In this document: positions 15,116 to 34,035 of the stretch, piece by piece | How the letters are laid out: each line of letters opens with the position of its first letter | Numbering within the stretch: position 1 is the stretch's first letter | Assembly (NCBI GenBank): GCA_016291995.1 | Contig: JAEEZV010000022.1 | Span: forward strand, 1 to 34,986 | Direction: 5' to 3' | Length of the DNA: 34,986 bases | Source of the DNA: Caryophanales bacterium | GTDB taxonomy: Bacteria > Bacillota_I > Bacilli_A > RF39 > UBA660 | The notes under the pieces: generated by a model | What the model was told of the DNA's origin: nothing | Databases searched by the model: none | What the model saw: only the letters and a program-made list of their open reading frames with translations | Position numbers and translations under genes: made by a program

Positions 15116-16198
15116 ATGAAAAAAATAGATAAAGTATTACTCTATTCCGTAATTATATTATCTTTATTTGGTCTATTAATGATTTATTCATCTTCATCTA
15201 TATGGGCAGAATATAAGTTTAATGATCCATATAAATATTTAAAAAGCCAAGGTATATTTCTTTTTTTAGGATATATCATCATGTTTTTTATCTCCAAAAT
15301 AGATTTTAAAATATATAAAAAATATAGTAATATCATCCTTATGATATGTCTTGGATTGCTTATCCTTGTTTTAATTCCTGGTATTGGTACAATTAGAAAT
15401 GGAAGTAGAAGTTGGTTTGGTATAGGGCCATTAGGTATTCAACCCAGTGAAGCCGCCAAAATAGGATTAATTATCTTTACTTCAAAATATTTAAGTAATA
15501 ATAAAATTAAAGATATTAAGCATTCTATATTGCCAATATTGATAATTCTTTTTCTAACATTTGCTCTTATCATGTTACAACCAGATTTAGGTACCGGTGT
15601 AATTATTGTCATGTCCGTTATCTCCCTCTTATTTATCTCGGGTGTAAATATGAGTTTCTTTATTAAAATGGGTATATTGGGACTAATCGGTATCATCGTT
15701 TTAATTATTATTGCTCCGTATCGTATTGCAAGAATTACTTCCTTTATAAATCCTTGGTCAGATCCATTAGGCAGTGGTTTTCAAATAATCCAAAGTTTGT
15801 ATGCCATAGGACCTGGTGGACTACTTGGTATGGGTATTGGCAATTCTATTCAAAAACACTTCTATTTACCAGAACCACAAACAGATTTTATCTTTTCCAT
15901 TATCAGTGAAGAATTAGGATTCGCTGGAATACTAATCGTATCCCTTCTCTTTATAACTATTATCTACCGAGGAATTAAAATATCTTTATCTATTGAAGAT
16001 AAATTTGCTAAATATTTATCCTTTGGCATAACCTTTAGTATTACCTTTCAATCTATCCTCAATTTAATGGTCGTAATAGGACTAATTCCTGTTACTGGTG
16101 TCACACTACCATTTCTATCTTATGGTGGCTCTAGCTTAATAATTTCCCTGTTAGAAATAGGAATTCTATTAAACATCTCTAAAAAAGAAGATCTATAA
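15116..16198 (+). CDS. ftsW: FtsW/RodA/SpoVE family SEDS glycosyltransferase
   Basis: SWFGIGPLGIQPSEAAKIG, LPEPQTDFIFSIISEELGF, GLIPVTGVTLPFLSYGGSSL. Confidence 0.93.
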   Translation: MKKIDKVLLYSVIILSLFGLLMIYSSSSIWAEYKFNDPYKYLKSQGIFLFLGYIIMFFISKIDFKIYKKYSNIILMICLGLLILVLIPGIGTIRNGSRSWFGIGPLGIQPSEAAKIGLIIFTSKYLSNNKIKDIKHSILPILIILFLTFALIMLQPDLGTGVIIVMSVISLLFISGVNMSFFIKMGILGLIGIIVLIIIAPYRIARITSFINPWSDPLGSGFQIIQSLYAIGPGGLLGMGIGNSIQKHFYLPEPQTDFIFSIISEELGFAGILIVSLLFITIIYRGIKISLSIEDKFAKYLSFGITFSITFQSILNLMVVIGLIPVTGVTLPFLSYGGSSLIISLLEIGILLNISKKEDL

Positions 16199-16209
16199 CA
16201 GATCTTCTT
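16185..16209. terminator. Bidirectional hairpin overlapping both stop codons of convergent genes
   Basis: AAGAAGATCT / AGATCTTCTT with loop ATAAC; contains TAA of ftsW (16196-16198) and TAG of the minus-strand gene (16193-16195). Confidence 0.75.
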
Positions 16210-17584
16210 CTTCATTTTCTTCTTCCACTACTTTCTTTTTTCTACTTCTTGGTTTAGTTGCTTTTGCTTCTTTAACTTCTTTTAATTCTCTACCCAATTT
16301 TCTTTTAGATGCTGCTAAAGCAATTATTAGAATTAATAAAGCAAAAATTATACCAAGAGCTATTAACAAATATTTATAGTATGTATTCATATTATTTTTA
16401 TATAAATCTAACACTTCTAGATTATATCTTTGTACTGTCTTTTCCTTAGCATCATATTGATATAAACTAGTCTTACCAGTCTCAACATTTTTGGCATAGA
16501 ATAAGTAAAATTGATTACCCGTAATTTCTTCATTATCAAGAGCATATGTATTCTTTAAAATATCTAACTTTACTTCTTGATAACTAGGGATACTCTCTTC
16601 TCCATAGATGAAATTTGTCTTTTTATAACCTTTAGGCATTTCATCATCCAAAAGTTGTAATGTTACATTACCAAAAGTATACTCTTTATATAATGTATAT
16701 TTATTATCTTTATAAATATAATAATCTACACTACCCTCATCATCTTTTAGACCAACTAAAGTATAATCTAGTTTTTCATTGTAGTATCCATCTACTTTTT
16801 CTTCGCCAATTTCTACTTCTTTTTCTTCATAATATTCACTTATTTCAGGTAACTCATCTTTCTTTCTAACAACCGTATATGATTCATTATCTACCTGAAC
16901 TTCAATTGGTTTTAATTCCTCAACCGTTGCTTTAATCACATATGTTCTTTTACTACCATTAGCAGCTGTTACAACAACATTTAATGTATTAGTACCTGTA
17001 ACCAAAGCTACTTCACCAGTTCCTGTTACTCTAGCATCAGAATCAGCTAATTGAGCATTAATTTTAACTTTATTTGTTTCAGCAGGAAGAGTTAAAGTAT
17101 ATTCTAAAACTTCTTTATCAAAACTCTCATTTAATTTGTAACCTTCAACTGTCAAACTACTTAAATAATTATTTGAAGATTTTGGTTTAACAGGTGTTGT
17201 TGTCGTATTTCCACCAGTTGATTTAGCTCTAACTGTTACGGTAACTGTCTTACTTCCTTTTATAGCATTTTCATTATAATCGCTTACATCTGTAGCTGTT
17301 ACCGTAATTTTAGCAGTTCCTGCCTTATTTGCTTTTAATGATATACTTTCAGTCTTACTGTCTACCCAAACAGAACCACTTGCTATACTTAAAACTGAAC
17401 TATCAGATGTTGTAACAGTAAATTGTCCAGCAGCCTCGCTTGCTGTAATATTTAAAGAAATACTATTACCTACCGTTACAGTACTACTAGTAACAGAAAT
17501 ACTAAATCCAGCTGCAAAAACATTTGCTATAAATAACATAAAACTAAAAATTGTTACTGTAAATAACTTAATAATCTTTTTCAT
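16193..17584 (-). CDS. Membrane-anchored surface protein: BIG2-like + cadherin-like beta-sandwich domains, C-terminal TM
   Basis: Signal peptide; SVTSSTVTVGNSISLNITAS...GTAKITVTA; cadherin-like SSLTVEGYKLNESFDKEVLEYTLTLPAETNKVKINAQL...GSKRTYVIKATVE; TM YLLIALGIIFALLILIIALAASKRK then charged tail. Confidence 0.82.
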   Translation of the reverse strand: MKKIIKLFTVTIFSFMLFIANVFAAGFSISVTSSTVTVGNSISLNITASEAAGQFTVTTSDSSVLSIASGSVWVDSKTESISLKANKAGTAKITVTATDVSDYNENAIKGSKTVTVTVRAKSTGGNTTTTPVKPKSSNNYLSSLTVEGYKLNESFDKEVLEYTLTLPAETNKVKINAQLADSDARVTGTGEVALVTGTNTLNVVVTAANGSKRTYVIKATVEELKPIEVQVDNESYTVVRKKDELPEISEYYEEKEVEIGEEKVDGYYNEKLDYTLVGLKDDEGSVDYYIYKDNKYTLYKEYTFGNVTLQLLDDEMPKGYKKTNFIYGEESIPSYQEVKLDILKNTYALDNEEITGNQFYLFYAKNVETGKTSLYQYDAKEKTVQRYNLEVLDLYKNNMNTYYKYLLIALGIIFALLILIIALAASKRKLGRELKEVKEAKATKPRSRKKKVVEEENEEEDLL

Positions 17585-17594
17585 GTCCTTCTCC

Positions 17595-19571
17595 TTACTG
17601 TACTATAAGTTTAGTACCCATTATATGATTCTTTATCGCTATATAATCAGCTGATGATATATCACCACTTTTATTTGCGTCAGCACTTTGTACGCTAACT
17701 CCGCTCAACTTTTTAGTACCCATTATATGATTCTTTATCGCTATATAATCAACAGAACTAATTAATCCGTCACCATTTACATCACCATAAATGATAAGTG
17801 TATATGTTTTTTCTTCTCTACTTGTTTTAATATTGATTACATCACCTGTTGCAATAATACCATTATTCTTAAGTTCCCCATCTTTATTCTTATATGTTAC
17901 TGTTGCCTTAGGTTCCTTATCCGTAATACTTTTAATAATTGCTGCGGCATCAGTACCGGTTTTATATCCATATACATATGTTCCGTCATTCTTTATTCCT
18001 AAGACTCTTAATATTTCCGCAATATCAAGTGCTTCTTCAACAGCATTCCTTTTAATAGTTAATACATATGTCCTTTTATCTCCATTTTCGGCAGTTACTA
18101 CAATACTTATTTCCTCTTGATCATTTTCAAGTGAAATACTTCCTGTACCACTAACTGTTGATCTATTACTTACTTTACTAGCTGCAATTTCTACTGTTTT
18201 AGTACTTGCATCTAAATTAAGATCATATTTTGTCTTAGAACTAGCCTTTTGGAATAAATAACTACCATTTACTGATAAACTACTCAAAAAGTTATTTGGG
18301 TTACCAATATTTGGTAAAGATACTTTCTCAGGCATATTTTTATATACTGGTATTGAAAATACAAAATCACTATTTAACATATTAACATTGCTATATGCCC
18401 TATATGTTTTAACTGATTCATTAGCTGGAGCCTCAATATTCTGCATATATTGGTGATTGACCAGAGAGTTTCCTACCATATCCCATTTTTGCAAGTATAA
18501 TGTATCTTGTCCCACAGATACATAATCATTAGCTAGGAAACTTGCTCCCCCAACAATAGCTTTATAATGAGTATTCCAGCCTTGTTCCTTCGCGTGCTTT
18601 AATCCGTTGGCAATCGTTTCAGCACTACCATTTCCAGAAGCTTTAATATTATAAAAGTTGTAATATCCTTCGTATCCAGCCACTGTACCAGATACAATTG
18701 TACTACCCTGAGCTCCCACTTCTTGTATTACTCTAGATATTAAAACATATGGACTAATATTATATTCCGTCGCTGCGTCTAAGAAAGCATCGACATATGT
18801 TTTTTTATTATCAGAATCAGCATATCCTTGCATAAAAGTGCCATTTAACATCTTTGTAACGCCTTCAGCAGTATGATAATTACTATTATAAGATAATGCT
18901 TCATACATAAATACTTGTCTTTCATTTAAAAAGTTACGTGGATCCATATAATAAGCAATTGTTGCTTTATTCGCTGCAAACCAATATGTTCCTCCACCTC
19001 TAAAATCATTTGAAAACGTATCAGTTAAATAATTATATGACCAAGAAGCAGTTGATTTATATCCATCACGACTTCTATTGGTATCTTCAATTAAACTCCA
19101 TCCTTGAGAATATCCATCATATTCTTTCGTTACCATACTATTAAAATCTTGTTTTATGTCATATACTTTGAATGACCAAGTCGGATATTTAACATGTAAT
19201 GTAACTAAATATGGAATATAACTATCCGGAAATCCTAAAGCTTTTAAATAATCACTATATTCTTCATAATCAGCCATATTTATTTCAGGTATTTCTTCTA
19301 TTTTAGTAAATTCACTACATATATAACCTACTGTCCCATTATTACTAGCTTTATACCATAATGTACATCCATTACCGGTACCAGCATTATCAGATATTAA
19401 TGATAATTGCTGTCCACTATTAAACATTGTAATAACAGAGCTTCCTGTCGTAGGTGCACTTCTAAAATTAACATAATCTTCTGTAACAACAATTATTTTT
19501 TCGGCAGATACAGAAAATGAAAAAATAACAAATGAAAAAACAAAGAAAACAAAATATGATATTTTTCTCAT
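17595..19571 (-). CDS. Secreted peptidoglycan hydrolase: SH3b - glucosaminidase (LytD/LytB-like) - cadherin-like - dockerin type I
   Basis: Signal peptide; DYVNFRSAPTTGSSV (SH3b); VLISRVIQEVGAQGSTIVSGTVAGYEGYYNFYNIKASGNGSAE (glucosaminidase); GDVNGDGLISSVDYIAIKNHIMG and ADANKSGDISSADYIAIKNHIMG (dockerin duplicated repeats). Confidence 0.88.
   Translation of the reverse strand: MRKISYFVFFVFSFVIFSFSVSAEKIIVVTEDYVNFRSAPTTGSSVITMFNSGQQLSLISDNAGTGNGCTLWYKASNNGTVGYICSEFTKIEEIPEINMADYEEYSDYLKALGFPDSYIPYLVTLHVKYPTWSFKVYDIKQDFNSMVTKEYDGYSQGWSLIEDTNRSRDGYKSTASWSYNYLTDTFSNDFRGGGTYWFAANKATIAYYMDPRNFLNERQVFMYEALSYNSNYHTAEGVTKMLNGTFMQGYADSDNKKTYVDAFLDAATEYNISPYVLISRVIQEVGAQGSTIVSGTVAGYEGYYNFYNIKASGNGSAETIANGLKHAKEQGWNTHYKAIVGGASFLANDYVSVGQDTLYLQKWDMVGNSLVNHQYMQNIEAPANESVKTYRAYSNVNMLNSDFVFSIPVYKNMPEKVSLPNIGNPNNFLSSLSVNGSYLFQKASSKTKYDLNLDASTKTVEIAASKVSNRSTVSGTGSISLENDQEEISIVVTAENGDKRTYVLTIKRNAVEEALDIAEILRVLGIKNDGTYVYGYKTGTDAAAIIKSITDKEPKATVTYKNKDGELKNNGIIATGDVINIKTSREEKTYTLIIYGDVNGDGLISSVDYIAIKNHIMGTKKLSGVSVQSADANKSGDISSADYIAIKNHIMGTKLIVQ
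17610..17755 (-). repeat. Intragenic direct repeat encoding the two dockerin halves
   Basis: tttagtacccattatatgattctttatcgctatataatca occurs twice, at about 17612-17651 and about 17712-17751 (+ strand). Confidence 0.85.
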
Positions 19572-19594
19572 TTTGATACACCTACCTTTAGTTA

Positions 19595-19600
19595 ATTATA
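19595..19600 (-). promoter_or_regulatory. -10 element of 17595..19571
   Basis: TATAAT on minus strand with weak TAGTCA -35 at 17 bp. Confidence 0.5.
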
Positions 19601-19660
19601 TCAAATGTATATGTTTTTGACTATGAACTAACTAGCACTTTACAAAAATTACTCTCCTAC

Positions 19661-19689
19661 TTGTCATTAATATTATTTTTATATATAAT
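19661..19689 (+). promoter_or_regulatory. Promoter of YigZ-family gene
   Basis: TTGTCA-N17-TATAAT. Confidence 0.75.
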
Positions 19690-19704
19690 TAAGTTGGTGG
19701 TTAT

Positions 19705-20286
19705 ATGTACACAATTAGTATTGACAACAAAAATGAAATTATCATTAAAAATTCCAAATTTATTGGTCTTATATATAAACTAGATAATGCTGACATAAAT
19801 ACTATATTAGACCATATTAGAAAAGAATATCCGGATGCAACACATTATTGTTATGCCTACATATATGAAAATAGTCAAAAATCAAATGATGATGGTGAAC
19901 CTAGTGGTACTGCAGGAATACCTATTTTAAAAGTATTAGAGGCCAACAATTTAACCAATACTCTAGTTGTTGTAGTTAGATATTTTGGTGGTATTAAACT
20001 AGGTGCCAATGGCCTAATAAGAGCCTATACAAAAGTTACCTCAAATTTAATAAAAGAAACACCTTTAGTTGAATTAATAGATGGCTTTAATTTAGATATC
20101 ACATTTGATTATTCCAAAATTAAAGAAATAGATTATCTCTTAAAAAATGAAAAAATAAATAATAAAACATTTGATAATACCATTACATATAACATATCCA
20201 TAAATAAAGATTTCTTAGACATTATTAAATCAAATAATATTACTTATAAAAATATTAAAGAAATAAAAATAGAAAGAACTATATGA
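19705..20286 (+). CDS. YigZ/IMPACT (UPF0029) family protein
   Basis: KFIGLIYKLDN...ATHYCYAYI...NDDGEPSGTAGIPILKVLE...VVVVRYFGGIKLGANGLIRAY. Confidence 0.94.
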   Translation: MYTISIDNKNEIIIKNSKFIGLIYKLDNADINTILDHIRKEYPDATHYCYAYIYENSQKSNDDGEPSGTAGIPILKVLEANNLTNTLVVVVRYFGGIKLGANGLIRAYTKVTSNLIKETPLVELIDGFNLDITFDYSKIKEIDYLLKNEKINNKTFDNTITYNISINKDFLDIIKSNNITYKNIKEIKIERTI

Positions 20287-20314
20287 TTTTTCTTACTTTA
20301 ACATATAGTTCTTT
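20273..20314. terminator. Bidirectional terminator overlapping both stop codons of convergent genes
   Basis: AAAGAACTATATG (20273-20285) / CATATAGTTCTTT (20302-20314), perfect 13-bp stem; includes TGA (20284-20286) and minus-strand TAG (20279-20281). Confidence 0.85.
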
Positions 20315-20977
20315 ATTTATATCTTCAATTGTTCTAATTTGTTTATCTTTAACGCAATCGATAACATCATAATCATATATTGCCGATAATTCTAAATAAG
20401 CTTTCTCTCCAAGTTTTAAATATTTTTCATTACGTTCAGTTTCATCTGCTACTTCTTTTCTGTCTTTCTTTAAAATACAAGCATATTCATATGGTAAGTA
20501 TAATAAAATAGTCAAATCTGGACGTGGTAATTCAAGTATATCATATTCCAAAGTTTCAATCTTTTTATAGATATCAAGTCTATCTTGTCTCTTTTCAAGT
20601 AATCCTCCTCTATGAGCCATATTGGAAGTAACATACCTATCGATAATTAAAATATATCCTTCATCAATTAATTGATTCAATTCAGAAAGATGATATCTAC
20701 GATCGGCCGCATAATAAAGTAATGCTGTTAAAGAATCGACATTTCCTCCACCTTCAGGAAAGAAACTATGATCTTCCTTTAATACTTCTTCACACATTGC
20801 CGGTTTTCCTAACAAACATGCCCCAACTATTTTACCCGTTGGACTATCATACCAAGGAAATGATAGTCTTTTTACTTTATATCCTTCCTTTTCTAATTTA
20901 GAAACCAACAAAGTTGTTTGTGTTTCTTTACCAGAGCAATCCGTTCCTTCGATAACTATTATCTTACCTTTTTTCAT
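20279..20977 (-). CDS. dTMP kinase-like protein
   Basis: IIVIEGTDCSGKETQTTLLVSKLEKEGYKVKRLSFPWYDSPTGKIV...IIDRYVTSNMAHRGG. Confidence 0.83.
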   Translation of the reverse strand: MKKGKIIVIEGTDCSGKETQTTLLVSKLEKEGYKVKRLSFPWYDSPTGKIVGACLLGKPAMCEEVLKEDHSFFPEGGGNVDSLTALLYYAADRRYHLSELNQLIDEGYILIIDRYVTSNMAHRGGLLEKRQDRLDIYKKIETLEYDILELPRPDLTILLYLPYEYACILKKDRKEVADETERNEKYLKLGEKAYLELSAIYDYDVIDCVKDKQIRTIEDINKELYVKVRKII

Positions 20978-21022
20978 TCTATCACCATAATAAATATATC
21001 ATATTCATAAATGTTTTGACAA

Positions 21023-21814
21023 CTATTTATCTAAAATATATGATATAAAAATACCTAAAAAGAAAAACACAATCCCAAATATATTAAATTTAATATGTAT
21101 CGTCATAACCATTAAAGTAACTATACTGGCAATTGCTAAACCAAGAATAATTAAATACATTATATTTCTATGTTTTTTTAACAAATAATTAATCAAATAT
21201 ATATTTATAATAAAAGATACTATCATTCCTAATCCATATGAAAAATATATCTTAAAATTACTTATAACATAATTAATATCAAAAACATTAGCTATTATCC
21301 TAAGTACATCATTATAAATACCCATAATCATTAAAAGAGATGATCCACTAATCCCCGGTAAGATCGAAGCAAATATATCAGTATATCCACCAATAAAGAA
21401 AACTATATTGTTATCATTTTTAATATAAGCTGTATGATTAGATACACTAAATGTTAAAAATAAAAACATGAATAAAACAAACAAAATAATGATTATATTT
21501 TTTAAATTATAATTAATTTTCTTACCAAAATTATATGTTCCTCCTAATATTAAACCAATAAAAAATAGCATTGTAACAAATTTAAAATTATTTAAAAAAT
21601 ATAAAAGTATATTACTACATAATACTATAGATAATAATACTCCCCCAAAAAAGATAACAATCGTTTTCAAATTATTTTTCCAATCAGAAAGAAAATCAGT
21701 TAGTGCATCTAATATTCTTTCATAGATATTAAAATTAATAGCTAACAGTGCTCCAGATACTCCAGGCATTATTTTGCCGATACCAACGATAAAACTTTTT
21801 ATAAATAAAAGCAT
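21023..21814 (-). CDS. DUF368 membrane protein (putative undecaprenyl-phosphate translocase family)
   Basis: KSFIVGIGKIMPGVSGALLAINFNIYERILDALTDF and internal repeat FIGGYTDIFASILPGISGSSLLMIMGIYNDVLRII. Confidence 0.88.
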   Translation of the reverse strand: MLLFIKSFIVGIGKIMPGVSGALLAINFNIYERILDALTDFLSDWKNNLKTIVIFFGGVLLSIVLCSNILLYFLNNFKFVTMLFFIGLILGGTYNFGKKINYNLKNIIIILFVLFMFLFLTFSVSNHTAYIKNDNNIVFFIGGYTDIFASILPGISGSSLLMIMGIYNDVLRIIANVFDINYVISNFKIYFSYGLGMIVSFIINIYLINYLLKKHRNIMYLIILGLAIASIVTLMVMTIHIKFNIFGIVFFFLGIFISYILDK

Positions 21815-21836
21815 TATATCACCAATAAATAATATG

Positions 21837-21861
21837 AAAAAAAGAGCAATTAATGCTCTTT
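21837..21861 (-). terminator. Intrinsic terminator of cohesin-like operon
   Basis: AAAGAGCA (21841-21848) / TGCTCTTT (21854-21861) with A tract (U tract on minus); overlaps stop codon. Confidence 0.8.
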
Positions 21862-23056
21862 ATTCAAAACTTTGCATATTCTTTTTATAATAGTACATTG
21901 CAACTCCAAGTGAAGCTATTAAAACTATCGCCATAATAAATGCACTCGTTCCACCAGTACTAGGATTAACTGGTGGCTTTTGACTAGGCGTAGCAGATGA
22001 ACCAGCTTTCTTAACAGTAATCGTATAAGAAACTTGTTCGACTAAATTCTCTTTATGATTTATAGTTATTAATACTTGTCCTTCACCTGATAATACTTTA
22101 GGTGGAACAAAGAATGAAGAAAATTCATAGTTTTCACTATCTTTAAGTGTTGCATCAACTGTATATGAAGAAACATCATCAAGTGTTACTTCATATTCAT
22201 ATTTAGAACTAGATAAAGTAACATTCTTACCACCAACAGTCAAAGTTGCAAGTTCTCCACCTTCTACTTCTTGTGGAACAGGTCTGGCAACATTAAGTGT
22301 ATATATTACTTGGTTATCTCCTTCACCAACATATATCTTAACTTGCATATTTGTTTGACCACTAGGTGGATTAAATTCAATACTACTTGCATTAAGAGTT
22401 GCATCCGTATGACCATTCTTAATAACAATTGTATCATTAGCATTTTTACTAGTAGCAGAAATACCAAATGTAGTCGTAGTTTCACTATCTAGAAGAACAG
22501 CATATCCTGTATCATTATCTAATGATGAGAAAGGCCTACCCAAAGTACCATTAGTAATAGATAAATTCTTAAGACCTTTTTCCGTTTCTACCGGTTCTGA
22601 TCCAGAACCAACTGTAACTGATACTGTTGCATCGCTAACAGAATAATTATCATCCAAATCATAGAATTTAACATCCGTAAGTTTGATAGTTTTACTTCCC
22701 TCACTTATTGAATCAGAAAGTTTAAATTTTATTGATCCAATTTGAAATGATCCATTGGCTGGATTTCCCATATATGGAGCAATTTTATTACCATTAATTG
22801 TCTTACCTTCCCAATTGTCATCAGCAAAAGTAATATTTTGAGAATTAATTTCTATTCCATCAGGTAAATCAAACGTACCAGTTACACCATATATATCAGT
22901 ATCGGTCGTTCCGCTTAAAGAACACGTAATTATATCTCCTGCTTTAGCTTCTGATGGTGAACAACTCATAGATAAAGTACCAGATAATGCATTTACCGTA
23001 ATTGGGAAAAACAACATCAATGAAATTGTCAACAATAACTTTAGTTTATTTCTCAT
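21860..23056 (-). CDS. Membrane-anchored surface protein: cohesin-like + cadherin-like domains, C-terminal TM
   Basis: Signal peptide; LSMSCSPSEAKAGDIITCSLSGTTDTDIYGVTGTFDLPDGIEI...FQIGSIKFKLSDSISEGSKTIKLTDVKFYDLDDN (cohesin-like); C-terminal SAFIMAIVLIASLGVAMYYYKK. Confidence 0.78.
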   Translation of the reverse strand: MRNKLKLLLTISLMLFFPITVNALSGTLSMSCSPSEAKAGDIITCSLSGTTDTDIYGVTGTFDLPDGIEINSQNITFADDNWEGKTINGNKIAPYMGNPANGSFQIGSIKFKLSDSISEGSKTIKLTDVKFYDLDDNYSVSDATVSVTVGSGSEPVETEKGLKNLSITNGTLGRPFSSLDNDTGYAVLLDSETTTTFGISATSKNANDTIVIKNGHTDATLNASSIEFNPPSGQTNMQVKIYVGEGDNQVIYTLNVARPVPQEVEGGELATLTVGGKNVTLSSSKYEYEVTLDDVSSYTVDATLKDSENYEFSSFFVPPKVLSGEGQVLITINHKENLVEQVSYTITVKKAGSSATPSQKPPVNPSTGGTSAFIMAIVLIASLGVAMYYYKKNMQSFE

Positions 23057-24402
23057 TTTTGCACCTCCAAAGTACTTATCTTTCCAAGTATGAATTGATG
23101 TAATTTAATAACATCACTTAAATCGACATTTCCGTTACCGTTGACTTCACCGGCCGTTAAATAAGCACCAGTAAGATGACTTATATCGATATTGTGTTGA
23201 TGTAATTTAATAACATCACTTAGGTCTACTGTACCACTACCATTTACATCTCCTAGTACAGATAACGTATATTCCAAAGTCTCATCACTAAATGCTATTT
23301 TTAAAACATCGCCTGTCCTAATTTTATCAGAATCGGTAACACTTTGACCTTTTGAATTAGTAATACTAATAGTACCTGATGTATCAAAATAATTTTTAAG
23401 ATTTGCATAACTTGTATTAGCTTTCAATCTTTCAATTGTCATCGTTGTATCATTAACTTTTAAACTCTCATCAATAACAAGTTTTTTACGTTTAAAACTA
23501 TATCTATCAATTTCATTATTATTATACATAATTAATAATTTACAATCATCATTTATTATTGTGTTAGCATCAGTAATTGCCGTACCATTCTTATTTATAA
23601 CCTTAATAGTAACTGTACTACTTGTAATATTTTGACTGATCTCACTATAATACGTATTATCAACATCATTAAGATATATTACTTTATCCATAATTTGATA
23701 ATCGGAATGGAATCTTATAATGTTTATTTCCTTAATTACTGTTCCACTACGCTTAAGTATTAATTTACCATCGCTAATACTATAAGCTATATTAGAATCA
23801 TTCGAACCAAGATTACTTATAATTACAGCATCTTCATCTGATCTAGTATAGATATAATTAGCATCTGCATTATATTCATAAACATCCGTACTAAATTCAT
23901 GCTCTGCCTCAACAGTAACCGTTGCTTCGACATCAGCCAATTCAATCATATTATATTCGTCATCGCATAGTTCAATATTAGTTAATTTAATTTTATAAGT
24001 CTTACCTGCTTCGGCATCATCTGCTATTTTTAGTTTTATTTGACCAACTGTTGTATTTGATGTTACACCAGTAGTTTTAACAATTGCAAATCCTTTAGCT
24101 GAACTAGCATACGTTTCAAAATCACCTTTAGCAGTAAATGACGTATATGTCAACTTTGAATCCAAAGTATAGTTTGCATTTACTGATAAAACTTTAACAT
24201 TTGATATCTTCAAATTAACATCGCATGTAATTATTGCTCCAGGCTCTGCTTCACTAGGTGAACAAGTAAGCGCTACACTACTTGTTGTATCTACACTATA
24301 TGTCCCTTTATTTATCCAAAATACAGACATCAGTATAAATAAACTAGCCACCGAAGCCAAACAAATACTAATTCCTAAATTCTTTCTTATAAAACTTCCC
24401 AT
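23053..24402 (-). CDS. Cohesin-like + dockerin type I adaptor-like surface protein
   Basis: N-terminal TM/signal; VALTCSPSEAEPGAIITCDVNLK...VGQIKLKIADDAEAGKTYKIKLTNIEL; C-terminal GDVNGSGTVDLSDVIKLHQHNI...GEVNGNGNVDLSDVIKLHQFIL; 4-nt overlap (ATGA) with next gene. Confidence 0.8.
   Translation of the reverse strand: MGSFIRKNLGISICLASVASLFILMSVFWINKGTYSVDTTSSVALTCSPSEAEPGAIITCDVNLKISNVKVLSVNANYTLDSKLTYTSFTAKGDFETYASSAKGFAIVKTTGVTSNTTVGQIKLKIADDAEAGKTYKIKLTNIELCDDEYNMIELADVEATVTVEAEHEFSTDVYEYNADANYIYTRSDEDAVIISNLGSNDSNIAYSISDGKLILKRSGTVIKEINIIRFHSDYQIMDKVIYLNDVDNTYYSEISQNITSSTVTIKVINKNGTAITDANTIINDDCKLLIMYNNNEIDRYSFKRKKLVIDESLKVNDTTMTIERLKANTSYANLKNYFDTSGTISITNSKGQSVTDSDKIRTGDVLKIAFSDETLEYTLSVLGDVNGSGTVDLSDVIKLHQHNIDISHLTGAYLTAGEVNGNGNVDLSDVIKLHQFILGKISTLEVQK
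23085..23225 (-). repeat. Intragenic direct repeat encoding the two dockerin halves
   Basis: ttgatgtaatttaataacatcactta present twice (about 23095-23120 and about 23197-23222). Confidence 0.8.
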
Positions 24403-24417
24403 ATTCCCTCCATAATG

Positions 24418-25260
24418 TTATTTTTTCTTCATAATCATCCTTAAAACATTAAATATAACTAAGAACACAATAATAGATATTAGAATTTTTTTCATATCAA
24501 TTACATTCTTTTTTTCTACCGTAACTGCCTCTTTTTTAATATTGATAGTATACGTTACCTCATAATCATCTTTACTTACAACAATACTGATAACACTACC
24601 ATCTTTTAAGTTTTTATTACCTTCTATTTTATATGTCGATAAAGCATTACTTAAAATAGGAGTAATAGCAAGTTCATCTTCATTATCTATAGTAAGATCA
24701 TAATTATATACATCTTTATCAAATGCTAAATAATAATTATCGATAATTATATCTTCTAAATATATATCTTCAGTAGCAGCAGGAGTTTCTACCGCAGGCT
24801 GCTCCTTCGTATTACTGCTCACAGTACCATTATTTGATACGCTAGTCTCTTTCATATTAACCGTAACAGATACTGAATCAATCGCTGTATTATCATCAGC
24901 AGTATAAAAAGCAACATCTTTTAGTTCTATTAATCCTGGATTACTACCACTTTTTTTAAATTTAGCAGTTCCAATTTTAAAAGTATTCTTAATTTCATCT
25001 GCCGTATATATTGATACCTTACCATTAGAGCCATATCCATTCCATATTGCATTATGTACGAATGAGACAAACAACAAGCCATCATTTGTAACTATATTAG
25101 TCTCGACACCAGAAATTGCAGAATCAGTACTACCACTGATTTCACAAGTAAATTCTTCCCCATCAAAAGCCTCTTTTGGGCAACTAATAGTAATGCTATC
25201 AGCATACACATGTAATGGGCATAACAATAAAATAAATAATGTCAATATTTTTTTCTTCAT
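24418..25260 (-). CDS. Membrane-anchored cohesin-like surface protein, C-terminal TM
   Basis: Signal peptide; ITISCPKEAFDGEEFTCEISGSTDSAISGVETNI...FKIGTAKFKKSGSNPGLIELKDVAFYTADDN; cadherin-like linker; C-terminal KKILISIIVFLVIFNVLRMIMKKK. Confidence 0.75.
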   Translation of the reverse strand: MKKKILTLFILLLCPLHVYADSITISCPKEAFDGEEFTCEISGSTDSAISGVETNIVTNDGLLFVSFVHNAIWNGYGSNGKVSIYTADEIKNTFKIGTAKFKKSGSNPGLIELKDVAFYTADDNTAIDSVSVTVNMKETSVSNNGTVSSNTKEQPAVETPAATEDIYLEDIIIDNYYLAFDKDVYNYDLTIDNEDELAITPILSNALSTYKIEGNKNLKDGSVISIVVSKDDYEVTYTINIKKEAVTVEKKNVIDMKKILISIIVFLVIFNVLRMIMKKK

Positions 25261-29345: not shown

Positions 29346-29370
29346 AAAAAGAGCATAAGCTCTTTTTTTT
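29344..29370. terminator. Bidirectional terminator between convergent genes
   Basis: AAAAAAAGAGC ATAA GCTCTTTTTTTT; overlaps stop of the minus-strand gene (29369-29371). Confidence 0.88.
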
Positions 29371-31792
29371 AATCTAAATCATGTCTTGCAAGAATCTGTG
29401 CTGGTGTCTTTCTAATTGTATTAAATACTGGTATTAAGCCAATAACAATGTTGAATAAATATAATAGTACAATACAAAGTACCATAACATAGATATTCAT
29501 AACATAATTTCTACCGACGTAATCAATATCTGATAAAACACTAATACAATATGACATAAATAATACTCCTGGTACTGAAGCTAATGTTGTAATAGCAAAA
29601 GCTTCACCCATAAACATCTTATATATATCACTCTTTTTAACACCAATAGCACGGTATATACCAACCTCTTTAATTCTTGATAAGAATGAACTACGCGTCA
29701 TCAAAATTATTTCGATTAATGAAATTGCTAACATAACTGCTGCCACGATAATACTTGAATTGATACTATCTTGATTTTCACTTACATATGCTTTTCTATC
29801 AACTTCATAAACATCGATTAATTTTCTATCCATATCTTCAAATTCTTGAATAGCTTTTTTCTTATCTTTAGCATATACAATTAGATTCTTCTTAGATTCA
29901 ATTAATTCATATTTATTAGTATTTGAATTAACAAAATAACTATTAATATCTGTACTAGATGTATAGTAACCAACGACATATAACTTTTCACCATTAATCT
30001 TAACTGAATCCATATACTTATTTAACTTAAAATCATATTTAAGATTATCATTGACAATTACCTCATAATCATTGCTTGGTGCTCTACCCTTTGTAATAGA
30101 TATCTTATCCTTATATAAATTGTAATCATATACCTTGCCTTCATTACTATCTTCAGCAGAAAACCAATCTACATTACTTGTGTTATCGATAATATTAATA
30201 AATTCATCCTCTGCAACATAGAATGATGGACTCTTAAGATCAGTAATACCTACAATAGTATATTCAAGTAATCCCTTCTTAATATTGATTTTAGAATCAA
30301 GCATTTTCTCTACTTTATAAAAGCCTAACATATTAAGTGCTTCAGCCTTATCATACATCATTTTATCGATAACTATCTCTTTATTATTTTCTGGCATTCT
30401 ACCGTAGATGATATCACTTTCTTTTAGCATATTAACACTCGCTATTGATCCTTTAATATTTACATCCGCATTTGCTGTTTGATAATATAAATTAGTATTT
30501 AATGGTAAATTAACTTGACTATCACCAGGTATTACATAATAAACATCTTCCATATCATTAAATTCTTTATATTCTTTTACTGTAACTTTACTACCATTTA
30601 AAATCAAATAATTAGCATTTGTTGAAACAAAATCAACATCTCTAATATTGGTAACTCCAAGTAAATTACTAATTGAATAAGTAACAAATAATGCTGATAA
30701 GAAGAAACCAACTAATAATAACTTTTTAATAAATGAATATGATTTTACTTTTTTAAATCCATTACTAAATATCGTAAATATATTAAATATTGATGTATAT
30801 CTTAATTTAAAATTATTATTGATAATTTTATCAAAATCAAAAGAATATTTTTCATAGACACTTTTATCTAATTCTTTATAATGATCATTAACTAATTCAA
30901 TATTAGAACTACTGTCGATAACCTCTATCTTATCATTATCTTTATTCTTAATATATAAATTTCCATTCTTAAGAATAATTACTAAATTTAATTCATCTTC
31001 TCCATCACTATACATTTCGATATTTATATTGTTATCATGATTCTTATTATGATATTTAAAATCTTTTAAATAAAACTTATTATCGATACGATAATCCAAA
31101 TTACCCGTATTTTTATTCTTATAATCCTTTGTAACAGTTCCGTCCAATACTTCAATAATTCTTGTTGCATAGAATTTAGCTAACTCTACTTCATGTGTTA
31201 CTAGTATTACTAATTTATCTTTTGAAATAGATTTAATAATATTCATTATTTCAATTGTATTCTTACTATCAAGATTACCTGTTGGTTCATCAGCTAATAT
31301 AATATCTGGATTTTTAACTAATGCTCTAGCAATACCAACTCTTTGTCTCTCTCCACCACTTAGCATTCCACAAGGACGATGTCTATAACGATATATTCCT
31401 AATCTCTCAAGAATATATTCTACTCTCTTCTTAACTTCTTCCTTATCTTTAATACCAATCATTCTCAAGACCATTGAAACATTTTCATAGACTGTTTTAT
31501 TATCAATTAATTTATAATCTTGGAAAATATATCCAACTTTTAAATTTCTTAATTTATCTTTTTTACCAGTAAAAATTGTAGTAATCTTATTATCATTAAT
31601 ATATATATTACCATTATTAACTTTATCTAATCCACCAATTGCATTAAGAAGCGTTGTCTTACCACAACCACTAGGCCCTAAAAGTGCAATAAGACCAGTA
31701 TCTGGAAGTGTTAAATTAGTATCATTAATAACATGAATTTGATTTTTTCTACCTTTGTTGTAATACTTATTTAATTTCTCAATCCTAATCAT
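29369..31792 (-). CDS. MacB/FtsX-type ABC transporter, fused ATPase-permease
   Basis: ALLGPSGCGKTTLLNAIGGLD, LSGGERQRVGIARAL, DIILADEPTGNLDS; C-terminal FtsX domain SRIKEVGIYRAIGVKKSDIYKMFMGEAF. Confidence 0.92.
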   Translation of the reverse strand: MIRIEKLNKYYNKGRKNQIHVINDTNLTLPDTGLIALLGPSGCGKTTLLNAIGGLDKVNNGNIYINDNKITTIFTGKKDKLRNLKVGYIFQDYKLIDNKTVYENVSMVLRMIGIKDKEEVKKRVEYILERLGIYRYRHRPCGMLSGGERQRVGIARALVKNPDIILADEPTGNLDSKNTIEIMNIIKSISKDKLVILVTHEVELAKFYATRIIEVLDGTVTKDYKNKNTGNLDYRIDNKFYLKDFKYHNKNHDNNINIEMYSDGEDELNLVIILKNGNLYIKNKDNDKIEVIDSSSNIELVNDHYKELDKSVYEKYSFDFDKIINNNFKLRYTSIFNIFTIFSNGFKKVKSYSFIKKLLLVGFFLSALFVTYSISNLLGVTNIRDVDFVSTNANYLILNGSKVTVKEYKEFNDMEDVYYVIPGDSQVNLPLNTNLYYQTANADVNIKGSIASVNMLKESDIIYGRMPENNKEIVIDKMMYDKAEALNMLGFYKVEKMLDSKINIKKGLLEYTIVGITDLKSPSFYVAEDEFINIIDNTSNVDWFSAEDSNEGKVYDYNLYKDKISITKGRAPSNDYEVIVNDNLKYDFKLNKYMDSVKINGEKLYVVGYYTSSTDINSYFVNSNTNKYELIESKKNLIVYAKDKKKAIQEFEDMDRKLIDVYEVDRKAYVSENQDSINSSIIVAAVMLAISLIEIILMTRSSFLSRIKEVGIYRAIGVKKSDIYKMFMGEAFAITTLASVPGVLFMSYCISVLSDIDYVGRNYVMNIYVMVLCIVLLYLFNIVIGLIPVFNTIRKTPAQILARHDLD

Positions 31793-31794
31793 AT

Positions 31795-34035
31795 TTACAC
31801 TTCCTCTCTATAAGATGTCATTGCACTATTTTTAAATATCTTATTTGAAAATCTTTGTGATATTAAATATGACATTAGAACTAAAATAATATACATTAAA
31901 ACATAATCTCTTAATTTTAAATATTCATAAATATTAGCAATAAATTTAATATATATAACATTGAATTTAACTAATAAAGTTAATCCTATATATACCAAAT
32001 ATGCAATTGTTGCATCAGTAAATATTTCAATATCTAATATTCTCTTTAAATGAATAAAATTAGCTCCTAATATTCTCAATGTTGAGAAATAAACATTACG
32101 TGATTTTAATATTAGTTTTATAACAAAATATGAAATAAAGAATAATGTAACTACCAATATAATTGTTACAACTAGTTTTAAAATCTTTAGAATCTTTAAC
32201 GCCTCAGCTCCGAAATTCTCTAATGTATGCCTAATTTGTAATGTCGTATAACCAAGTTCCTCTAAATCTTCGCATAATTTATCAACATTTTCTGGATGAT
32301 CTGCCATGACACTAGCTTGATAACTTTCTTTATTAAATAATTTATTATAATCAGAATTACTTATAAATATTGAACCATTTATTGGATTAGTTTTATTTAA
32401 CCATAATAATTCACCAACCGTTTTATCGGTATATACTCTACTTATATTTAAACTTAATTCATCTTCATAATATAAATTCTTAACATTTATCTTAAGATTC
32501 TTATTTCTACAATAATAGTCTTTACATGCATAACTAATTGCTTCAGAAACATATGCCTCTCCAGAAGAAACTCTATCTGTAGGTCTTATATCGAAATTAT
32601 ATCCTGGAGCAACATAACTTTCATAGCTCTTATTATTGATAATTACATTAACATTACTACGTTCATGATTAATTCTCTTCATGTAACTATCTAGAATATT
32701 TCCACTAACATATATCATATTTTGTTGATTAGAAACGACTCCAACTATTGTTGCTCTATCTTGAATGTATTTAACACCTACAACATTAATTTTAAATGTT
32801 TCTGTATCACCTTCTAAATAGTAATCCTTAGTAATTGCTTCTTCTAGTTTATCAACGAAATAATAATCATATGATGTTGTAAGATATATTACTTCATTAT
32901 CATTTTCAGGCATTCTACCATAATCTAGTTTACCTTCAAAACTATCTAGATCATTAAGATTACCTGATAAATTAAAGTAACTTCCATCATTACTCTCAAA
33001 CCACATAGTATTATCTAATATTAAATCGTTCTCTACAACTTTAGATACACCATCTAATTCTTTAATTTTATTAAAATCATCATTACTTATTGAAGAACCA
33101 TCTGTCTTTTTAATGACAATTCTCGTATCACTTAAATCATTAAAATAATAGTTATATCCTATCTTACTTTCCTCATATTCATTCTTTCTAAAAGAACCAT
33201 ACACACTAAGTAAACTGATAGTAACAAAGAAAAATACAATAAACATTAAAATAAATTTAGGAATTATATTAAATGTATTACGAAGTCCCAATCTAATCTT
33301 ATTAAACCATCCAATATTCTTAAATTCTCTTACTTCTAAATTCTTAACTTTCTCAGTTTTAACTACTTCCTTATCAGAAACAATTTTACCATCATGCATT
33401 TTTACAACACGTGTTGCCAAGTCTTCAATTTCCTTAAAGTTGTGTGTAACAACAATAACCAATTTATCCTTTGATATTTCTTTTAATAGTTTAATAACAT
33501 CTTTAGCAGATCTACTATCAAGATTACCTGTCGGTTCATCACAGACGATAATTGGTGTTTCTTTAGCCAATGCTCTTGCAATAGCTACTCTTTGTTTTTG
33601 TCCACCAGATAATTTAGATACTTTTGTTTTCTTATACTTCTTAAGTCCTACCTTATCGATTAACTCTAATACTTTTTCTTTAACTTCTTTTCTTTTATAC
33701 CCATTTAAAAGCATTACTAGTTCGATATTTTGATATACTGTATAACTATTAACTAAATTAAAATTCTGAAAAATGTTAGAAACATATTTCTTACGATATT
33801 CTTCAAAATCTTCTTCACGATAATGGCTTGTTTCTTCTCCATTAATATACATTTCTCCTTCTTCATAACTATCGAGTCCAGAGATAACATTTAAAAGAGT
33901 ACTCTTACCACTACCAGATTCACCAATAATAGCTACGAATTCACCTAAATGAAATTCGATATTTATTTTAGTAAAACCTGAAGCAATAACACCTTTACTA
34001 TAATAGAATTTTGATACGTTTTTTAACTTTAACAT
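31795..34035 (-). CDS. MacB/FtsX-type ABC transporter, fused ATPase-permease
   Basis: AIIGESGSGKSTLLNVISGLD, LSGGQKQRVAIARAL, IIVCDEPTGNLDS; FtsX-like C-terminus KSRNVYFSTLRILGANFIHLKRILDIEIF. Confidence 0.92.
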   Translation of the reverse strand: MLKLKNVSKFYYSKGVIASGFTKINIEFHLGEFVAIIGESGSGKSTLLNVISGLDSYEEGEMYINGEETSHYREEDFEEYRKKYVSNIFQNFNLVNSYTVYQNIELVMLLNGYKRKEVKEKVLELIDKVGLKKYKKTKVSKLSGGQKQRVAIARALAKETPIIVCDEPTGNLDSRSAKDVIKLLKEISKDKLVIVVTHNFKEIEDLATRVVKMHDGKIVSDKEVVKTEKVKNLEVREFKNIGWFNKIRLGLRNTFNIIPKFILMFIVFFFVTISLLSVYGSFRKNEYEESKIGYNYYFNDLSDTRIVIKKTDGSSISNDDFNKIKELDGVSKVVENDLILDNTMWFESNDGSYFNLSGNLNDLDSFEGKLDYGRMPENDNEVIYLTTSYDYYFVDKLEEAITKDYYLEGDTETFKINVVGVKYIQDRATIVGVVSNQQNMIYVSGNILDSYMKRINHERSNVNVIINNKSYESYVAPGYNFDIRPTDRVSSGEAYVSEAISYACKDYYCRNKNLKINVKNLYYEDELSLNISRVYTDKTVGELLWLNKTNPINGSIFISNSDYNKLFNKESYQASVMADHPENVDKLCEDLEELGYTTLQIRHTLENFGAEALKILKILKLVVTIILVVTLFFISYFVIKLILKSRNVYFSTLRILGANFIHLKRILDIEIFTDATIAYLVYIGLTLLVKFNVIYIKFIANIYEYLKLRDYVLMYIILVLMSYLISQRFSNKIFKNSAMTSYREEV

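Follow-up and report, generated by a model that had tools for sequence, protein, structure and literature searches.

Known cohesin/dockerin systems and the studied locus

Cohesin-dockerin binding is mostly known from feeding machines directed against outside polymers. The locus described here shares with cellulosomes a type I dockerin on an enzyme, a cohesin-fold receptor, an adaptor carrying both a cohesin and a dockerin, anchoring proteins, and recognition residues at dockerin positions 17 and 18, but differs from them in that one enzyme faces a single-cohesin receptor rather than multi-cohesin scaffoldins, the cargo is a hydrolase acting on the cell's own wall, and no plant glycoside hydrolases occur among the dockerin proteins found in the genome. 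The non-cellulosomal cohesins of C. perfringens (PDB 2vo8, 2jh2, 2w1n), with a similarly pairwise and not scaffold logic, are the nearest solved folds to the cohesin domain of one protein studied here, 24418, but the modules there reside on secreted glycosidases, and here, on membrane or wall anchors and an autolysin. In the SagB-SpdC peptidoglycan release complex of Staphylococcus aureus, SpdC, an integral membrane protein of the CAAX protease family, directs a homologous glucosaminidase, SagB, to cut nascent glycan (PMC12272431); we propose a membrane-protein partner here as well, but a single-pass one with cohesin-like and cadherin-like ectodomains. Finally, the Limousia mucinolysome (PMC12997984) is also a cohesin/dockerin system of gut Firmicutes MAGs not used for cellulose digestion, and 4333 MAGs carrying both modules have been reported (PMC12997984), but there mucin glycosidases are borne on tandem-cohesin scaffoldins. 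In the open literature that we searched, with few subscription papers covered, the pairing of dockerin or cohesin with an autolysin, glucosaminidase or peptidoglycan hydrolase is undescribed. The conserved arrangement is real, and its use is new within that literature.

The window (the whole analyzed stretch of 34,986 nt) corresponds to contig C21 of a MAG of 828 kb that is 79% complete, and contains five minus-strand ORFs of interest (24418, 23053, 21860, 17595 and 16193) at the coordinates listed below. We consider it fairly probable that they form two related but separate modules, one with the dockerin of the autolysin 17595 docked on 16193, and the other comprising the triplet 24418, 23053 and 21860 with a different dockerin type. 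Within the 79% of the genome available we find three dockerins (in 17595, in 23053 and on contig C49), none of them on a plant-polymer hydrolase, and only single cohesins; that is, neither a multi-cohesin scaffoldin nor the several dockerin-bearing glycoside hydrolases of a cellulosome. For comparison, 94 ORFs combining a dockerin and a glucosaminidase were collected in Bacilli and Clostridia (the window's own family, Lachnospiraceae and other Firmicutes) among the matches listed. Since the genome scan contributes its 80 best matches as named loci, the counts below are not estimates of prevalence. Two loci recorded in the database as "Tenericutes" and "Bacilli" (L203, L204) encode autolysins identical to those of genomes G004 and G002, both from the window's genus.

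The autolysin and its dockerin

17595..19571, minus strand: dockerin-bearing autolysin with signal peptide, SH3b, SagB-like glucosaminidase, cadherin-like domain, beta module and dockerin (Pfam/NCBIfam, PDB)
19302-19487, minus strand: autolysin SH3b domain (SH3_3, Pfam)
18375-19196, minus strand: autolysin SagB-like glucosaminidase (weak Pfam Glucosaminidase, NCBIfam SagB, PDB)
18048-18296, minus strand: autolysin cadherin-like domain (Pfam)
about 17796-18029, minus strand: autolysin beta module
17616..17795, minus strand: autolysin type I-like dockerin, K-type, recognition helix D-Y-I-A-I-K-N-H-I-M (Pfam Dockerin_1, 52 bits)

The domain order that the preliminary description gave for 17595 (SH3b, glucosaminidase, cadherin-like, dockerin) is recovered by Pfam, with the glucosaminidase match being weak. 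The catalytic domain scores 74 bits with the NCBIfam SagB model over residues 195-396, under the cut-off of that model, and matches PDB entries 6fxp and 6u0o, the latter at 1.5e-16; E284, which we take to be the catalytic residue from what is known of the family, is invariant in alignment A3. Judged by catalytic-domain homology and the conserved Glu, 17595 is a SagB-type glucosaminidase, and the earlier reading of the locus as a small non-cellulosomal cohesin/dockerin system with a peptidoglycan glucosaminidase as cargo is upheld.

Two calcium-loop repeats and a Dockerin_1 (PF00404) match over the cut-off are found in both 17595, where the loops are DVNGDGLISSVD and DANKSGDISSAD, and 23053 (25.1 bits). 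The two dockerins differ at positions 17/18, with K-N in 17595 and H-Q in 23053.

The ftsI-mraY-ftsW type genes, invoked earlier as cell-wall context, are indeed present in the window, but they lie on the other strand in a convergent orientation. As a conserved neighbor of the autolysin pair (17595 and 16193) ftsW was rejected, since relatives have alanine symporters (G003, G005) or glycosyltransferase-4 genes in this place. Further on in the window (29369-34035) lie two large tandem genes whose products carry an ABC ATPase (MacB/FtsE-like) at the N-terminus and additional TM segments.

Proposed receptors encoded behind the autolysins

16193..17584, minus strand: proposed autolysin membrane receptor (of 86 dockerin-glucosaminidases that are followed by a gene, 85 show the same placement, order and TM)
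17222..17515, minus strand: its short N-terminal domain, reduced cohesin-like/Ig-like, about 98 aa (hhalign, AF2)
16925-17173, minus strand: its cadherin-like domain
about 16313-16369, minus strand: its TM segment, followed by a charged cytoplasmic tail

The gene 16193 lies 10 bp behind 17595 and encodes a signal peptide, the short N-domain, the cadherin-like domain, a long region, the TM segment and the tail. It had been described as a TM-anchored cadherin-like protein, which is correct as far as it goes, with the N-terminal domain in the cohesin position overlooked. Among the matches listed, a same-strand gene directly follows 86 of the 94 dockerin-glucosaminidases at a median gap of 11 bp, and its product has cadherin-like, Ig or cohesin matches in 85 of these 86 cases; a C-terminal TM segment is common to all of the 80 complete receptors, and the six that lack it are contig-end fragments. 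The usual layout in the window's family, Lachnospiraceae and other Firmicutes is N-domain, cadherin-like, TM, and no LPxTG-type motifs were found in the autolysin receptors. The remaining eight dockerin-glucosaminidases among the matches listed have no receptor gene behind them; several come from Ruminococcus/Oscillospiraceae.

In other genera, 44 of 51 canonical receptors among the matches listed are recognized by Pfam Cohesin (PF00963) at E<=0.01 (best 1e-12), and a profile of the canonical receptors yields almost exclusively cohesins as top PDB matches (best 4e-14); by profile match, these receptors are cohesins. The N-domain of 16193 aligns with them at 98.3% in hhalign (E 1.2e-14), has no match to the Pfam Cohesin profile, and falls short of the full-size cohesin fold: the best Foldseek matches of its AF2 model (pLDDT 85) are S-layer Ig-like domains, a cohesin-FN3 pair being third. 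Profile A1, comprising the receptor N-domain and cadherin-like domain with the signal peptide included, mostly retrieves antibody light chains from PDB, led by their signal peptides, and is uninformative.

These data suggest 16193, rather than any gene of the cohesin triplet, as the most likely partner of the autolysin. In the proposed mechanism, the secreted SagB-like glucosaminidase would clip by its dockerin, presumably in a calcium-dependent manner, onto the reduced cohesin-like N-domain of 16193, which would hold the wall-cutting enzyme at the outer face of the membrane, near newly made peptidoglycan, where it could trim or release glycan strands. The SagB-SpdC complex, with its membrane protein guiding the homologous glucosaminidase, serves as the model for this proposed place of action. 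Docking of a wall hydrolase to a membrane tether via a cohesin/dockerin pair appears, from sequence data, to occur in the window's bacterium and in many of its Firmicutes relatives. Searches of six genomes that encode the pair found no dockerin other than that of the autolysin.

The main alternative, which we regard as unlikely, is that the N-domains of the receptors belong to a generic Ig-like or adhesin sandwich type without affinity for dockerins, the second gene encoding a membrane regulator that acts on the autolysin by way of its other parts, and the dockerin having another partner or none. It agrees with the resemblance of the short type to Ig and S-layer domains and with the retention of receptors where dockerins are absent: at eight Lachnospiraceae-type loci (L243, L264, L265, L266, L268, L270, L272, L278) a cohesin-like membrane receptor is kept beside a dockerin-less glucosaminidase, and whole-genome dockerin searches in five genomes with this combination gave zero matches, so in such genomes the receptor has another role or is a relic. 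Against this alternative, the majority of receptors from other genera are cohesins at the Pfam and PDB level, and the receptor types switch together with the dockerin.

Matched switching of dockerin and receptor classes

K-type dockerins are followed by receptors with the short N-domain in 18 of 20 cases, compared to none of 66 otherwise (among the matches listed). Positions 17/18, the published dockerin recognition positions (PMC3413522), correspond to the form of the receptor N-domain: K-N goes with the short form, Q-K and similar pairs, with the canonical cohesin, L-R, with a third form (L133, L178, L212, L258), and R-K or R-Q, with a fourth one (L177, L179). On the tree of catalytic domains the class label switches nine times, at least five of these switches being forced by supported branches. 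Of the independent pairs, five point in the same direction, none in the opposite one, and two are ties; with the classes set after inspection of the data, the sign test alone yields p 0.0625. Both halves have been switched even within the window's genus, in G002.

Moreover, given the catalytic distance, the partial Mantel correlation between the dockerin and the receptor N-domain in the window's family is 0.594 (0 of 500 permutations), against 0.051 (134 of 500 permutations) for the next receptor domain used as a control. In the wider set the respective values are 0.499 and 0.277, and inside classes the dockerin to N-domain correlation is 0.476 for the canonical and 0.506 for the short one.

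As the dockerin and the receptor N-domain adjoin on DNA, with only a short gap and the receptor signal peptide between the two coding stretches, transfer of a linked cassette (the end of the first gene and the start of the second) could mimic co-adaptation with no binding involved. The control correlation in the wide set conforms to this scenario, but its near-zero value in the window's own family does not, and two loci also speak against it. DNA linkage is a genuine confounder; the cassette scenario itself we consider quite improbable. In L168:1095-5217 (G021) an M6-type peptidase has a K-type dockerin, and the gene of a short-type receptor is located in front of it, so the pairing is kept in the reverse gene order. 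In L119:900-7157 (G004) the order is a papain-like protease whose dockerin is of the DV type, a cohesin and dockerin adaptor, and then a membrane-anchored receptor that matches in type; here the cargo is different, behind each dockerin class comes the receptor class that belongs to it, and the adaptor dockerin (D-L-L-K-M-R-Q) is paired with the fourth receptor type, otherwise seen with the autolysins of L177 and L179. The chain in G004 also bears out the earlier proposal that anchor and adaptor architectures exist.

Compared to docking of 17595 on 16193, a broader generalization is more tentative, its chances being in our opinion somewhat below even: a wall hydrolase with a housekeeping role may, across Bacilli and Clostridia, be docked one-to-one to the membrane, with several matched dockerin and receptor classes changing in concert, a shrunken Ig-like cohesin (as in the window) still capable of binding, and, in some lineages, an adaptor linking wall and membrane cohesins. 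If true, this would mean that in many little-studied gut Firmicutes cohesin-dockerin binding is put to use on the cell's own wall. Many "orphan" cohesin/dockerin genomes without a cellulosome would then be accounted for, autolysins would have a simple means of being tethered to the membrane, and dozens of naturally matched pairs would become available for the study and engineering of orthogonal recognition.

The cohesin triplet

24418..25260, minus strand: membrane-anchored cohesin with a cadherin-like domain and C-terminal TM (AF2/Foldseek, profile A2)
24862-25194, minus strand: cohesin of 24418 (AF2/Foldseek)
about 24436-24498, minus strand: plain C-terminal TM segment of 24418
23053..24402, minus strand: adaptor with N-terminal hydrophobic segment, cohesin, middle region and dockerin
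23920-24276, minus strand: cohesin of 23053 (Pfam Cohesin 17.6 bits, under the cut-off of 24.1; profile A2)
23083-23262, minus strand: dockerin of 23053, helix D-V-I-K-L-H-Q (Pfam Dockerin_1 25.1 bits, cut-off 22.9)
21860..23056, minus strand: probable wall-anchored cohesin with two cadherin-like domains, sorting signal, hydrophobic stretch and charged tail
22619-22975, minus strand: cohesin of 21860 (N-domain 39% identical to that of 24418)
21953-21967, minus strand: NPSTG sorting signal of 21860 (NPxTG kept in 7 of 7 orthologues)
21023..21814, minus strand: undecaprenyl-phosphate translocase-like membrane protein, PF04018 (Pfam, 101.7 bits), conserved neighbor of the triplet

Within the genus, orthologues of the triplet genes are located between lon and the PF04018 gene, and other genera show variants of this arrangement; the PF04018 orthologue adjoins that of 21860 in five genomes of the genus.

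Cohesin-like N-terminal domains had been claimed for all three proteins. At the curated cut-off, Pfam confirms the dockerins of 17595 and 23053, the latter at the C-terminus as described, but no cohesin in the window: the domain of 23053 remains below the cut-off and that of 24418 has no match. In the triplet family, 7 of 29 members match Pfam Cohesin at E<=0.1 (best 2e-7), and the family profile A2 mainly retrieves cohesins from PDB (best 3.6e-5) and aligns with the canonical cohesin receptors at 97.3% in hhalign. The four best Foldseek matches of the AlphaFold2 model of the 24418 N-domain (pLDDT 92.4) are non-cellulosomal cohesins from C. perfringens and Archaeoglobus (top 2vo8, TM 0.76), the model being not fully independent of the cohesin assumption because its alignment included cohesin-like receptors. 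By profile and model, the triplet N-domains have the cohesin fold, in agreement with the initial claim.

Both 24418 and 21860 had been assigned C-terminal TM anchors. This holds for 24418, whereas 21860 is probably attached to the wall by a sortase, as all seven orthologues, the window's included, retain NPxTG, a hydrophobic stretch and a charged tail, and a sortase gene is present on contig C4 of the same genome (G000) and in every searched genome of the genus. The features of a sortase-anchored surface protein (xPxTG, hydrophobic stretch, positive tail, sortase in the genome) are all found for 21860, with the NCBIfam LPXTG score at 13.5 bits, under the cut-off of 15.9.

Triplet-type cohesins adjoin dockerins of the D-V-x-x-L-Y/F-R/Q class with non-autolysin cargo. 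Since the dockerin classes differ, separate partners are expected for the 17595 and 23053 dockerins, and the two modules would not cross-bind. The single complex of three cohesins around the autolysin envisaged in the preliminary description, with 17595 docked on one of them, is thus unsupported and the least probable reading: although all its members are encoded in one window and are cohesin-fold or dockerin proteins, their dockerins differ at positions 17/18, the K-N type goes with the 16193-type receptor, no triplet-type cohesin is seen directly behind an autolysin among the matches listed, and the autolysin pair and the triplet are about 12 kb apart in G001 and on different contigs in other genomes.

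In the favored reading with two modules, the membrane cohesin 24418, the adaptor 23053 and the probably sortase-anchored 21860 could join the membrane, the adaptor and the wall, or else present other cargo. Docking in this second module is less certain than in the first, its probability being evenly poised, because genomes G005 and G006 lack 23053 at the triplet locus and keep the anchors; in G006 (94% complete), which retains both anchors, no other dockerin of the predicted DV class was found.

Other cohesin/dockerin loci

The genome-wide search for further dockerins suggested earlier yields one more, on contig C49 (L128:8337-10553), where a single protein combines a dockerin, a cohesin, a cadherin-like domain and a TM segment. 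This architecture recurs in the genus (L190, L202, L285, L287, L290, and L191 without a dockerin match), and self-association of such proteins is possible. A cluster of several dockerin proteins and two small membrane-anchored cohesins is observed on contig C20 of G026 (L192, L193). At three loci, L283 (G005), L286 (G001) and L133 (G002), a sortase gene is located a few kb from a dockerin gene.
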